The notes below the pieces were generated by a model that was given only the letters and a program-made list of their open reading frames with translations, was not told the origin of the DNA and searched no databases. The translations under genes and the position numbers were made by a program. A stretch of 64,000 nucleotides of DNA from Bacteroidia bacterium. GTDB lineage: Bacteria; Bacteroidota; Bacteroidia; AKYH767-A; OLB10. Below, one piece after another: positions 55,666 to 61,074 of this stretch (its first letter is position 1; each line of letters starts with the position of its first letter). The stretch spans positions 1 to 64,000 of the forward strand of contig JAEUTI010000042.1 in NCBI GenBank assembly GCA_016788065.1, read 5' to 3'.

Positions 55666-55881
55666 TTAATTTTTAAACAGTTCGCTGATATGAACGTTTA
55701 ATGCATTGCTGATTTTAAAAAGTGTAAAAATGGTCACGTTTGTCTGCCCAGATTCTATTCTTGACATAGTGGCCTTTTCAAAATCGCATAAATTCGCAAG
55801 ATCTGATTGTGATAATTTTTTGTCTTTCCTGATAGATTTGATGCGAGCACCAATCTCAATCAGGATCTTAGTTTGTGGCAT
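55666..55881 (-). CDS. XRE-family helix-turn-helix regulator
   Basis: 71 residues, essentially one HTH_3 domain: IGARIKSIRKDKKLSQSDLA, NLCDFEKATMSRIESGQTNV, TIFTLFKISNALNVHISELF. It is a small cytoplasmic DNA-binding protein. No partner toxin or phage gene is adjacent. An inverted repeat (GAGCTTG AAAA CAAGCTC, about 55638-55655) lies just after its stop and could be a weak terminator. Confidence 0.88.
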   Translation of the reverse strand: MPQTKILIEIGARIKSIRKDKKLSQSDLANLCDFEKATMSRIESGQTNVTIFTLFKISNALNVHISELFKN

Positions 55882-56166: not shown

Positions 56167-58104
56167 ATGAAAAACAGTTTACTGGTTCTAGGAGTACTTT
56201 GTAGCCTCATACTCATATTAAGTAATTTCACGATTAAAATGGATGCGGCTCAGCCGTTTCATACTCCGCAGGAATTAGCCATAATTCAGCACCGGATGCA
56301 GACACCTATTGGTCCCGGGGAATACTTTCAGCCTTCTTCAAGTTGCAGAGGTTGCCATGGGTTTGATACTTTGGGTTTTGCAAATGTTGATGAAAATGGA
56401 ATCGATGTGAACTTATTTGATCGCTGGCAAAGCACTATGATGGCACTAAGTGCTAAAGATCCATTATGGAGAGCAAAGGTTAGCCAGGAAATATTAGTAA
56501 ATCCGGCTCATGCATTAGGGTTACAGACGAAATGCACATCGTGTCATGCTCCAATGGGACATTACAATGCTATTTACCATGGAGCCACTTCCTATACCAT
56601 TGCAGATCTTGTAAATGATTCTTTGGGTTTGGATGGTGTTTCTTGTGCGGGTTGTCATACCATCGGACCATCGGTTGGTTCAACTTTTTCAGGAATCATT
56701 CCCTACGATACCACCCGAAATATATATGGGCCTTTTACATTCCCATTTGCGGGCCCCATGCAATTATATGAAGGATATACTCCTGTTTACAGTCCGCATA
56801 TGGACAATTCAGCAGTTTGTTCTTCCTGTCATACCCTAATTACTGAGACAGTTGATTTAGCAGGAAATTATACCGGCGGACAATTTGTTGAACAAGCAAC
56901 GTACCATGAATATCTGAATTCTGATTTTCCGGCAAACAATATAAAATGCCAGACCTGCCATATGCCTCAGGTTGCCGATCCAATTGTAATTGCGAACGGC
57001 TATTTATCTTTACAGGCCAGATTTCCATTTAATCAGCACACATTCGCAGGGGCCAACCATTTTATGCTTGACCTGATAAAGAATAATAAGAGCAGCCTGG
57101 ATATAAATGTTCCTGATGCCAATTTCGATAGTTCGATGGCTGCGAATTTGCACATGTTGCAAAAGCAGTCTGTCGAATTTGAATTGATTAATGATGGCAT
57201 TACCGGAGACACTGCCTATTTCAGAGTAAAAATCACTAATAAAGCAGGACACAAGTTCCCATCTGGTTATCCATCGCGTCGGGCCGTATTACAACTCGTA
57301 ATGCTGGATGCATTCAATGATACGATCTTCCGTTCCGGAATTTTCGATTCAGAATACAGGGTTACCGGAGAAACACCGCAATTCGAACAACATCATGCGG
57401 TAATTAATCAGGATAACAAAACACAGATTTATGAAATGGTGATGGGTGATGTAAATGGCGACTTTACCTCTGTGTTAGAACGTGCAGCAATTTTATTAAA
57501 AGATAATCGGATTCCTCCTACCGGATTTACCACAACTGCTCCGATGTACGACACTGTAATGATATCGGCCGATGCACTTGCAGATGCTGATTTCAATAAA
57601 GTTGGTTCTGTAGAAGGAAGTGGAATTGATGAGGTAATTTACAAAATTCCGGTTGCCGGTTATACCGGGACGGTTTCTGTCAAGGCCAAACTATATTATC
57701 AGGCAGTTCCTCCAAAATGGCTCGATGAAATGTTTACTTTGAACAGTGCAGCTATTGATACCTTCCGGAATATGTACATGGCAGCTGATAAGGATCCTAT
57801 TCTGGTTGCTGCAGATAGTCTCACCGATGTTTTGAGCGGCATTAATCAATTAAACACTGTTAAAGAAGACATACAGGTTTGGCCAACCATTACGTCCGGG
57901 CGTGAAATAAATTTCACTATCCACACAAACAATCCGGTTGTCACTGTCAGCTTGTATACTTCCAATGGAAAAAAAATAAGTCAATTGAATAACAGATACA
58001 CAAAAGGCACTCATAAGTATACGCTGCCTGATGTTGCCGGGACTTATCTGTTGAAAATAACGACATCTGAAAAATCATATTACAAAAAAATAGTAAAATA
58101 TTAA
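56167..58104 (+). CDS. Exported five-heme cytochrome c with T9SS sorting domain
   Basis: 645 residues. A signal peptide (4-22) is followed by five CxxCH haem c sites: C60 (CRGCH), C123 (CTSCH), C160 (CAGCH), C218 (CSSCH) and C261 (CQTCH). The middle (about 320-560) is beta-rich with FRVKITNKAGHKFPSGYPSRR, like the C-terminal half of multihaem cytochromes of the c554 type. The end (about 570-645, VSLYTSNGKKISQL ... GTYLLKITTSEKSYYKKIVKY) is a T9SS type-A sorting domain, so the haems should end up on the cell surface or outside. It lies 53 bp before the FG-GAP protein. Electron donor and acceptor are unknown. Confidence 0.92.
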   Translation: MKNSLLVLGVLCSLILILSNFTIKMDAAQPFHTPQELAIIQHRMQTPIGPGEYFQPSSSCRGCHGFDTLGFANVDENGIDVNLFDRWQSTMMALSAKDPLWRAKVSQEILVNPAHALGLQTKCTSCHAPMGHYNAIYHGATSYTIADLVNDSLGLDGVSCAGCHTIGPSVGSTFSGIIPYDTTRNIYGPFTFPFAGPMQLYEGYTPVYSPHMDNSAVCSSCHTLITETVDLAGNYTGGQFVEQATYHEYLNSDFPANNIKCQTCHMPQVADPIVIANGYLSLQARFPFNQHTFAGANHFMLDLIKNNKSSLDINVPDANFDSSMAANLHMLQKQSVEFELINDGITGDTAYFRVKITNKAGHKFPSGYPSRRAVLQLVMLDAFNDTIFRSGIFDSEYRVTGETPQFEQHHAVINQDNKTQIYEMVMGDVNGDFTSVLERAAILLKDNRIPPTGFTTTAPMYDTVMISADALADADFNKVGSVEGSGIDEVIYKIPVAGYTGTVSVKAKLYYQAVPPKWLDEMFTLNSAAIDTFRNMYMAADKDPILVAADSLTDVLSGINQLNTVKEDIQVWPTITSGREINFTIHTNNPVVTVSLYTSNGKKISQLNNRYTKGTHKYTLPDVAGTYLLKITTSEKSYYKKIVKY

Positions 58105-58157
58105 TTTGAATTCCTGACCACATCATATCAATCGCAAAAACCAAAAACTCCAATTAA

Positions 58158-61025
58158 ATGAAAAAAACATTACGTATTGCAACCATGGCGATGCTTCTCT
58201 GCAGCATGAATGCGCTTCAACAGCAGGCAGCAGCTCAGCCAACCTTTACCAATGCCAACAGCAGACTTACTAACTCCAACTTCCGAAGTGGATGTGCAGT
58301 TACAGTTGTTGACGTTAATAATGACGGGCTTGATGATATCGTCAGGATGAATCAGGGTCATATGATTAACCTGGAGCTACAGGACAGAGAAGGGAATTTT
58401 GAAAACTACTTTATTGCCGATATTTCTCCGGGAGGTGGAAGCTCATGGGCGATGACCATGGCTGATGTGGATCACAATGGATGGAAAGATGTTGTTGCTG
58501 ATGGCGCAAGTGGAATTCGCTTGGTGAAGATATTCGAATCGGGAGGTGTGATTACTTCTACTAATACACTTCTTGCCAATTCAGGCTTCTTTTTGCAGAA
58601 TGCAACTTTCTGCGATATGAATAATGATGGATGGATTGATCTCTTTTGTTGCGATGACAACGATGCAAGTAAGCTTTATCTGAATGATGGCGCCGGGAAT
58701 CTGAACCCTTCTACCTTTGTGAATTTTGCAGTAAACCCAACAGTATTTTATGGTGGTGATCCTGCTGATTCCGGAAATTACGGAAGTGCATGGATTGATT
58801 TCGATAATGATCAGGATCTTGATTTATATGTTGCACATTGCCGTCAGAGCACTTCCAGTCCAACTGATTTACGCAGAATTAACCGCTTGTTCGTAAACGA
58901 TGGCTCTAACAATTTTACGGAGCAGGCAGGAGCATTTGGTATTGATGTAGGCTGGCAAACATGGACTTCAAGTTTTGGAGATATTGATAATGATGGCGAC
59001 CTGGATCTGATGCTTACCAACCATGATCATACAAGCCAGATATTTGAAAATGATGGCACCGGTCACTATACTGAACTTACCAATACAGGATTTAACACCA
59101 ACTCTATCACACCAATTGAATCTGTAATGGAAGATTTTGATAATGATGGATTCATCGACATTTTAGTAACCGGTGATGAGTGGGTTTACCATCGTAACAA
59201 CGGTAACAAAACTTTCACCAGAGTAACATCCATGTTTGCAAACAATGGAATGCTGTCATTTGCAACAGGTGATTTGAATCATGATGGCTTCATTGATATT
59301 TATGCTTCCTATGGAAATATTTATCAATCACCTTCCAACACCTATGATGATGTGTTGTATCTGAACAATAAAAACAGCAATAATTTTATTACTTTCAATC
59401 TTGAAGGAACAACCAGTAACAAAGGAGCAATTGGAGCACGCGCAACCATCTATGGTCCCTGGGGAGTTCAAATCCGTGAAGTAAGAGCCGGCGAAAGCTA
59501 TGGTACCTGCAACTCATTTCAATTGCATTTCGGTTTGGGACAAGAAACCGATGTAGATTCTGCTGTTGTATGGTTTCCTTCAGGAAACACCACTACATTT
59601 ACGAATTTAGATGCAAATCAATTTGTAACTGTTGTTGAAGGAGGCTGTACTGTTACAGGAAATATCATTCCTGGTCCATATATTATTTGCACCGGACAAA
59701 CACTTACATTAAATGCCCCTGCAGGATTTACTTCTTATTTATGGAATGATGGAAGTACAGGTGCTTCCCTTACTGTTTCTGCTGCCGGAAGTTATAATGT
59801 AATGGTAACTGATGCTTTAGGTTGTTCTAACATTTCTGCAAGCATAGAATTACTGGTTAGTCCTGATGAAACTCCAACTGTTTCCACTACCGGTGATCTT
59901 ATTTTCTGCGAAGGCGGATCAACAACACTCACAAGTACTGCCGCACTCTCCTATGTGTGGTCTGATGGCTCCACGTCTCAAAGCATTACACCATCCACAA
60001 CAGGATGTTATACTGTAACTATTCAGGGAGTTTGTAACACTTTCTCCTCTACTCCTGTTTGTGTAACGGTATTGGATGCTCCTGAACCTGTAACAACAGG
60101 TGCTGCAGGACCGCCATTATCTACGCTGTTGCTTTCAGCTACCGGCGATAGTCTTTCCTGGTATGATCAGCAAACAGGTGGCACATTGCTGGCTAATGGA
60201 AGTTCTTATACTACTCCACCATTGGCGACTACTACAACCTATTGGGTTGACAATACTACGAGCTACCCTGGAGATGTTTCATTTACCGGACAAACTTATC
60301 ATTCAGGAACAGCATTCAGCGGAAGTGGAGCAACCAATTCCAATGTTGAGTTTGATGTATTGGGTAATGCTACTCTGGTATCAGTAAAAGTTTATACCGA
60401 CACTCCGGGTGATCGTGAAATTCAGCTTAAGAATGCTGCCGGCACCGTTTTAAACAGCTTACTGGTAAACATTCCTATTGACAGTTCACGAGTAACATTA
60501 AACTTTCCATTAGTACCTGGTACCGGTTATGAACTTACAACAAATCCTGTAGTTAATAATTCAAGTTTCGGATTTAACGGACCACGTTTGCGCAGAAGCA
60601 GTACAGGTGTTGCTTATCCTTATCAGGTAGCAAATGTTATTTCCTTGACCGGATCAAATCAAGGTGGGTCATTCTACTACTATTTCTATGACTGGGAAGT
60701 ACAAGAGCCTTCATACGTATGTGTGAGCGACCGTGTTCCTGTTGTTGCTGATATTACAACCGGCATAGGCTCTGTAAATGCTACTGATGGAATTCAGGTT
60801 TATCCTAACCCTGCAAGCTATGAAGTAACCGTTGAATTTGCTGAAGCAACCATGGGCAGTGTTGAATTAACTGATCTTTCAGGAAGAGTAATTAAAACAC
60901 AAGCTATTGCTCTTGCTACTTCAGGTAAAGTTAAAATCGATCTTTCAGGAATTGCAAAAGGATCTTATCAGTTGAGAATTTTATCTGACAAATCAGAATC
61001 AGTTAAAAGAATCACAGTAAAATAA
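58158..61025 (+). CDS. Secreted FG-GAP/UnbV-domain protein with T9SS sorting domain
   Basis: 955 residues with a signal peptide (1-27). Seven calcium-binding-type FG-GAP motifs (DVNNDGLDDIV, DVDHNGWKDVV, DMNNDGWIDLF, DFDNDQDLDLY, DIDNDGDLDLM, DFDNDGFIDIL, DLNHDGFIDIY) form a probable seven-bladed propeller over residues 40-400. An ASPIC/UnbV domain (about 420-500, GAIGARATIYG, LHFGLGQ) follows, then two Ig-like CHU-type domains, a jelly-roll-like section and a T9SS type-A sorting domain at the end (IQVYPNPASYEVTVEF). The pair with the cytochrome suggests co-expression at the cell surface. It has a strong terminator. Confidence 0.9.
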   Translation: MKKTLRIATMAMLLCSMNALQQQAAAQPTFTNANSRLTNSNFRSGCAVTVVDVNNDGLDDIVRMNQGHMINLELQDREGNFENYFIADISPGGGSSWAMTMADVDHNGWKDVVADGASGIRLVKIFESGGVITSTNTLLANSGFFLQNATFCDMNNDGWIDLFCCDDNDASKLYLNDGAGNLNPSTFVNFAVNPTVFYGGDPADSGNYGSAWIDFDNDQDLDLYVAHCRQSTSSPTDLRRINRLFVNDGSNNFTEQAGAFGIDVGWQTWTSSFGDIDNDGDLDLMLTNHDHTSQIFENDGTGHYTELTNTGFNTNSITPIESVMEDFDNDGFIDILVTGDEWVYHRNNGNKTFTRVTSMFANNGMLSFATGDLNHDGFIDIYASYGNIYQSPSNTYDDVLYLNNKNSNNFITFNLEGTTSNKGAIGARATIYGPWGVQIREVRAGESYGTCNSFQLHFGLGQETDVDSAVVWFPSGNTTTFTNLDANQFVTVVEGGCTVTGNIIPGPYIICTGQTLTLNAPAGFTSYLWNDGSTGASLTVSAAGSYNVMVTDALGCSNISASIELLVSPDETPTVSTTGDLIFCEGGSTTLTSTAALSYVWSDGSTSQSITPSTTGCYTVTIQGVCNTFSSTPVCVTVLDAPEPVTTGAAGPPLSTLLLSATGDSLSWYDQQTGGTLLANGSSYTTPPLATTTTYWVDNTTSYPGDVSFTGQTYHSGTAFSGSGATNSNVEFDVLGNATLVSVKVYTDTPGDREIQLKNAAGTVLNSLLVNIPIDSSRVTLNFPLVPGTGYELTTNPVVNNSSFGFNGPRLRRSSTGVAYPYQVANVISLTGSNQGGSFYYYFYDWEVQEPSYVCVSDRVPVVADITTGIGSVNATDGIQVYPNPASYEVTVEFAEATMGSVELTDLSGRVIKTQAIALATSGKVKIDLSGIAKGSYQLRILSDKSESVKRITVK

Positions 61026-61040
61026 TAAAGTACCGATATA

Positions 61041-61074
61041 AAAAAAGGCTCCGGAATCCGGAGCCTTTTTTTTT
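61041..61074. terminator. Bidirectional terminator between the FG-GAP gene and pyk
   Basis: 8-bp stem GGCTCCGG-AAT-CCGGAGCC with an A-run to the left and T-run to the right, so it works in both directions. Confidence 0.93.

Follow-up and report, generated by a model that had tools for sequence, protein, structure and literature searches.

In the window, by which we mean the whole 64,000-nucleotide stretch of Bacteroidia DNA analysed here, two adjacent genes encode a cytochrome with five CXXCH motifs (haem-binding histidines 64, 127, 164, 222 and 265) and an FG-GAP/ASPIC propeller protein. The explanation that best accounts for this unit as a whole is, in our judgement, a cell-surface redox pair consisting of a haem-loaded cytochrome exported by the type IX secretion system (T9SS) and a CRTAC1-like propeller, and we hold it with moderate confidence.

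The two open reading frames lie on the forward strand with 53 bp between them (Table 1). A gap without predicted fold, together with the strong inverted repeat that follows the second gene, fits a two-gene transcript; the repeat sits between the pair and a convergent gene that we named by eye as pyruvate kinase. Upstream of the cytochrome gene, on the reverse strand (window 55666-55881), is a gene for a small XRE-like helix-turn-helix protein of 71 aa, also named by eye. It is retained in a genome of the same genus (G001, locus L010) and could either regulate the pair or be a bystander.

Table 1. Features of the cytochrome/propeller locus, in window coordinates; residue numbers are those of the respective protein
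Feature	Position	Strand	Basis
Cytochrome gene: 645-aa pentahaem protein ending in a T9SS type A sorting domain	56167..58104	+	ORF, domain models, predicted fold
Haem-binding domain, about residues 51-334, pentahaem c552 fold	56317..57168	+	predicted-structure comparison (5ze8 match spans 51-554)
Haem motif 1, CRGCH, residues 60-64	56344..56358	+	sequence
Met92, predicted axial ligand in place of the His of 5ze8, MccSep and deeper relatives	56440..56442	+	alignment inference
Haem motif 2, CTSCH, residues 123-127	56533..56547	+	sequence
Haem motif 3, CAGCH, residues 160-164	56644..56658	+	sequence
His211, invariant, candidate distal haem ligand	56797..56799	+	alignment
Haem motif 4, CSSCH, residues 218-222	56818..56832	+	sequence
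Haem motif 5, CQTCH, residues 261-265	56947..56961	+	sequence
His291, invariant, candidate distal haem ligand	57037..57039	+	alignment
Ig-like beta domain, about residues 335-556	57169..57834	+	predicted structure
Candidate distal haem ligand His362, in the Ig-like domain (AGHKFPSGYP); invariant	57250..57252	+	alignment
Candidate distal haem ligand His409; invariant within the clade	57391..57393	+	alignment
T9SS type A C-terminal sorting domain of the cytochrome, residues 568-645	57868..58101	+	domain model, conservation, predicted fold
Intergenic gap, 53 bp	58105..58157	+	fold 0 kcal/mol; terminator scan lists no terminator-like site
Partner gene: 955-aa propeller protein (FG-GAP/ASPIC, CRTAC1-like) ending in a T9SS type A sorting domain	58158..61025	+	ORF, domain models, predicted fold
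Propeller and ASPIC region, residues 27-496, CRTAC1 fold, six D-x-[DN]-x-[DN]-G-x-x-D loops	58236..59645	+	predicted structure, sequence
UnbV_ASPIC domain	59427..59630	+	domain model
Sorting domain (T9SS type A) of the partner	60798..61022	+	domain models
Probable bidirectional terminator: strong inverted repeat, A/T tails	61040..61072	.	-22.3 kcal/mol, z -5.3; absent from the separate terminator-scan list

By its predicted structure the first protein is a pentahaem cytochrome of the c552/ExtKL-type fold, to which a sorting domain has been added. Profile searches returned weak relatives only, with 5ze8 and MccSep at E values of 0.0002 to 0.002. A model predicted from a 78-sequence alignment (mean pLDDT 86.7) has as its best structural match 5ze8, the pentahaem c552 of Thermochromatium tepidum (Foldseek E 1.4e-17; VIA Z 26.2, rmsd 2.7 and 24% identity over 347 residues, covering model residues 51-554), and its haem domain is followed by an Ig-like domain, as in 5ze8. 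All 80 loci that we took from named genomes likewise encode five CXXCH motifs. Two assignments to established families were rejected: the ExtKL equivalog model (NF040886), which matches weakly in 61 of 74 cytochrome members at E<=0.001, gives 21.1 bits against a curated cut-off of 250, and the OmcA/MtrC model (TIGR03507) gives 21 bits against a curated cut-off of 209.3. The protein exceeds the cut-off of a shorter domain model, PF22113 (33.6 bits; cut-off 30).

Passages of a cable-bacteria study published in 2025 (PMC11976967) propose a pentahaem cytochrome family that includes ExtKL, Gsu2801 and sPHC/lPHC, describe it as structurally similar to the T. tepidum c552, propose a role in extracellular electron transport for ExtKL, and call members of the family potentially catalytic. 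The same passages cite a suggested relation of the T. tepidum c552 to the archaeal extracellular nanowire protein AvECN, and the general statement in our first-pass annotation that five-haem cytochromes are usually periplasmic needs qualifying in that light.

Domain models, predicted folds, conservation and an SprA gene together give good support for export of both proteins by the T9SS, as the first-pass annotation had predicted when it described a five-haem cytochrome and an FG-GAP protein that both carry sorting domains. The NCBIfam model TIGR04183 (cut-off 23) is exceeded by each, at 38.3 bits in the cytochrome and 35.1 bits in the partner; the Pfam model PF18962 (cut-off 27) is passed by the partner with 43.8 bits and missed by the cytochrome with 21.1. 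In the cytochrome model, residues 568-645 superpose on 8glk_D, the C-terminal domain of a T9SS cargo bound to the translocon (Z 10.8, rmsd 1.8, 74 residues), and residues 567-645 match two further translocon-bound cargo domains, 8gl6_D (Z 9.7) and 8gl8_D (Z 9.5). TIGR04183 was found in 74 of the 74 cytochromes scanned, which is not an unbiased rate because the 80 named loci are the best 80 of 560 relatives and lean towards full-length, tagged homologues; it was also found in 40 of 40 partners. The cytochrome set comprised 78 members after removal of L108, L144 and L148, whose frames are truncated or broken, and 74 after removal of four near-duplicates as well; the partner set comprised the window protein and 39 of 59 intact partners.

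The genome from which the window comes encodes SprA (SprA_N, E 4.9e-173), at least 150 sorting-domain matches, and cytochrome-c assembly proteins. At its N-terminus the cytochrome has a high-scoring hydrophobic stretch of 19 residues (5-23) with no signal peptidase site obvious by eye, and this stretch could be an anchor. The annotation had remarked that export of haem-loaded proteins by the T9SS is poorly documented; in agreement with this, we found no paper on a T9SS-exported multihaem cytochrome among the matches listed in the open-licence literature, and the part of PMC3174227 that mentions ASPIC/UnbV and cytochrome says nothing about the pair.

The partner combines FG-GAP repeats, a UnbV_ASPIC domain, a CHU_C-type Ig domain and its sorting domain, with PF13517 and PF07593 both above their cut-offs. 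Its model (mean pLDDT 87.4) is matched best by murine CRTAC1 (9etn; Foldseek E 3.2e-20; VIA Z 37.7, rmsd 2.6 over 435 residues, 27-496). The earlier description of the propeller as seven-bladed is consistent with its closest structural matches, and the six D-x-[DN]-x-[DN]-G-x-x-D loops are of a type that would bind calcium. We stress that the fold gives no function, because many propellers with other functions score Z 22-29 in the same match list. Within the Ig-like part, the region at window 59650-60270 (about residues 500-705) resembles repeats of GhpA, the giant grappling hook protein of Aureispira, over 10 stretches (profile E 2.9e-98).

That the cytochrome and its partner form a functional pair is strongly supported. 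The search for the gene pair in other genomes that the first-pass annotation had put forward as a check bore out the association. Among 100 related genomes we found the cytochrome in 28 (30 loci), and the partner directly adjoins it in 22 of the 30 loci, typically 30-63 bp downstream, in flanks that otherwise vary. In the 80 best loci from named genomes, whose record titles all indicate Bacteroidota, the partner stands beside the cytochrome in 67, in 59 of these downstream on the same strand and in eight downstream and convergent. Since adjacency is retained across the strand inversion of those eight loci, inertia explains it poorly. Of the 13 named loci without a downstream partner, one (L146) contains a match at another place in the locus; the other 12 have none, and in six of these there is less than 3 kb of downstream sequence.

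The two genes also co-occur across genomes. Scoring the eight best first-look candidates in each genome and taking 400 bits or more as positive, we found the partner in 27 of the 28 related genomes with the cytochrome and in none of the 72 without it (Fisher 1.5e-23, uncorrected for kinship); the best match in a cytochrome-free genome, 328 bits in G063, covers the propeller only. The pair is non-adjacent in six of the 28, five of which keep the partner elsewhere (G049, G050, G093, G094 and G029, the last scored from a fragment that lies where a contig ends), and G086 has no partner. Pairwise distances between cytochromes correlate with those between partners (r 0.82, 40 pairs, 0 of 999 permutations). 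One genome, G061, has a second full-length copy of the partner away from the cytochrome (C10:16810-19662, 973 bits).

In both tagged and untagged homologues, as judged from the 78-homologue alignment and the far groups described below, four histidines outside the CXXCH motifs (211, 291, 362 and 409) are invariant, the one exception being His211, which is kept in 92% of the far tagged group. Several methionines are likewise invariant among the homologues, including Met92, which is retained in 78 of 78 sequences of the alignment (A3), in 11 of 12 far tagged and in 11 of 11 untagged cytochromes. The corresponding position, in a W-x-x-S-x-H motif, is a histidine in 5ze8 (by alignment), in MccSep (the motif found by eye) and in four deep relatives (L219-L222). 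Met92 together with His211, 291, 362 and 409 would supply five distal ligands for the five haems, one of them a His/Met pair. From the invariant change of histidine to methionine, we hypothesize that one haem is probably His/Met-ligated and hence of higher potential.

In a phylum-wide sample the haem core is present in 33 of 395 genomes, from which we took 35 stretches. The cytochromes of 13 far loci (L189-L201) look tagged, with TIGR04183 above its cut-off in ten, below it in two (L193, L195) and not found in one (L191); only in L190 is the partner alongside. In 11 further loci (L202-L212), which belong to other classes of the phylum, the cytochrome has no sorting domain. We considered whether the sorting domain tracks the presence of the T9SS and rejected this: all 32 genomes that have far homologues encode SprA, those with untagged cytochromes included, so the missing domain of the 11 untagged loci is not due to a missing secretion system.

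All 11 untagged cytochromes are instead preceded, on the same strand and at distances of -26 to 58 bp, by a gene of one family (for example L203:6679-7866 and L205:3696-4856). The three products that we scanned contain a class I single-haem cytochrome domain and a weak match (15 of 22 bits) to Phenol_MetA_deg, a family that we take to be outer-membrane barrels. Outer-membrane barrels end in an aromatic residue, and so do these three proteins, whose end is FEGW. The cytochrome-barrel protein occurs, full-length or nearly so, in all 11 genomes with an untagged cytochrome and in none of the 38 searched that have a tagged one, where weak hits to its cytochrome part are all that was found. Together with the untagged pentahaem cytochrome it is possibly an uncharacterised outer-membrane electron conduit. 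Given this barrel partner in the untagged sister lineages, T9SS export looks like an alternative use of the cytochrome at or beyond the outer membrane, and our reading of the distribution is that a single pentahaem core is used with either of two outer-membrane partners, the barrel or T9SS export with the CRTAC1-like protein.

In the deep relatives L219-L222 the pentahaem domain is fused to about five predicted N-terminal membrane helices; two of these proteins were scanned, and one of them gave a weak match of the cytochrome b561 type. In four of four, the cytochrome gene is followed by one for a CRTAC1-like protein and then by one for a TPR protein (for example L222:2063-6695; the N-terminus of the L222 TPR protein is lipoprotein-like). 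No sorting domain was found in the one CRTAC1-like protein of this group that was scanned, and none was seen at the ends of the others. Given the CRTAC1-like neighbour in this group, the association of pentahaem cytochrome and CRTAC1-like protein probably predates the T9SS version.

How electrons would reach the surface is a separate matter. An outer-membrane porin-cytochrome conduit would need a porin or barrel to accompany the cytochrome, but in the window's genome we found no MtrB-type porin (MtrB_PioB, 0 matches) and no match to the cytochrome-barrel protein of the untagged relatives. By these searches we found no route that would take electrons from the inner membrane, across the outer membrane, to a cytochrome on the surface. 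Because neither the porin nor the cytochrome-barrel protein was found, we make no claim that the organism respires solids. Surface redox chemistry is likely. Extracellular respiration remains unproven, and its energy-conserving form is not supported. The first-pass proposal of an extracellular electron-transfer or surface redox module is thus upheld in part: extracellular electron transfer is compatible with a haem core from the family that contains ExtKL, but neither conduit protein was found in the genome. A pattern for paired CXXCH motifs, applied to the DNA of the genome, returned only L224 (G000:C92), although its narrow spacing misses most multihaem genes, that of the window cytochrome included. 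L224 is another multihaem cytochrome gene, whose product has a cytochrome c domain at its N-terminus; an oxidoreductase-like gene comes after it, and by eye it looks like alternative complex III.

We propose the following sequence of events. Sec would take both proteins into the periplasm, where the cytochrome would fold and gain its five covalent haems by means of the encoded assembly proteins. The T9SS would then carry the folded, haem-loaded cytochrome and its partner across the outer membrane by way of their type A C-terminal domains. On the surface the two may remain joined, the propeller with its loops of calcium-binding type serving as a binding or docking module, and the pentahaem core may relay electrons among its tightly packed haems, to or from an extracellular partner. 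The sister lineages without a sorting domain would employ the same core, encoded there with an outer-membrane single-haem cytochrome-barrel protein. Stated more generally, environmental Bacteroidota would use secretion instead of a conduit, the T9SS delivering a haem-loaded cytochrome into a surface complex with a CRTAC1-like protein where their sisters use a cytochrome-barrel protein; this broader proposal is tentative, and we put it at somewhat below an even chance.

The main rival, which we consider unlikely while still giving it real weight, is a surface enzyme system and not an electron conduit, in which the CRTAC1-like protein or the cytochrome is a catalyst acting on an outside substrate and the cytochrome handles electrons locally. 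In its favour, no trans-outer-membrane conduit was found in the genome, the propeller also matches aldos-2-ulose dehydratase (4a7k, Z 24.8), and the description of haem-family members as potentially catalytic in the passages of PMC11976967 cited above points the same way; however, many propellers of unrelated function stand at Z 22-25 in the same list, and we identified no active-site residues.

Less probable again, in our estimate, is a periplasmic cytochrome tethered by its N-terminal helix, with a C-terminal domain that is vestigial or structural. The long N-terminal hydrophobic stretch, a similar one in the cytochromes of the untagged relatives, and the failure of the C-terminal domain to reach the Pfam cut-off would all suit such a protein. 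A vestigial domain would decay, however, whereas TIGR04183 is present in every one of the 74 homologues scanned and in all 40 partners, and the fold matches the translocon-bound cargo domains tightly. We regard as very improbable an extracellular haem filament, formed by polymerization of the secreted cytochrome in the manner of distant archaeal fold relatives: the tagged protein would end up outside, where polymers form, and the cable-bacteria paper likens the pentahaem family to AvECN in the passages cited, but the bulky Ig domain, a sorting domain that is normally processed and surface-anchored and an equally conserved propeller partner better suit a surface complex. Accidental neighbourhood of two genes among many for T9SS cargo, not rare in a genome with so many sorting-domain matches, is contradicted by the data and can be practically discounted, given that the same partner adjoins across many families with differing flanks, even after inversion, that the two genes co-occur as described, and that the genome encodes only three UnbV_ASPIC proteins.

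If the surface redox pair is as we propose, the T9SS would be a route for cofactor-loaded redox proteins and a further general way of placing multihaem redox proteins outside the Gram-negative cell; the routes by which multihaem cytochromes are known to reach the outer face rely, to our knowledge, on porin-cytochrome conduits or type II secretion. Environmental Bacteroidota would gain a surface redox function missed by screens for known conduits, and bacterial CRTAC1-like proteins would get their first strong functional link. The fold of each half and the tag are known; new to us are their combination, the fixed CRTAC1-like partner, and the complementary distribution with respect to the barrel partner.

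Four known systems bear comparison. MtrCAB and Cyc2 are outer-membrane porin-cytochrome conduits, with which the pair would share, if our preferred explanation is right, redox chemistry of a c-type cytochrome at the outer surface; here, by contrast, the genome yielded neither an MtrB-type porin nor a cytochrome-barrel fusion, and delivery would be by secretion. With the T. tepidum c552 (5ze8) and the pentahaem family the window cytochrome shares five haems and the fold of a haem domain plus Ig-like domain, and it differs from them in its T9SS sorting domain, its CRTAC1-like partner and the methionine that replaces histidine at W-x-x-S-x-H. The partner resembles CRTAC1 (9etn) in its propeller and ASPIC domain, with the UnbV_ASPIC model well above cut-off, and differs in having about 370 extra residues of Ig-like domains, a T9SS sorting domain, a bacterial origin and a fixed cytochrome partner. 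Finally, both proteins share the TIGR04183 C-terminal domain with T9SS type A cargo such as NucA/endonuclease I (8glk), RemA (8gl6) and RgpB, the predicted fold of this domain in the cytochrome matching the first two at Z 10.8 and 9.7; what sets the present case apart from known cargo of this type is that the cargo is a five-haem cytochrome.
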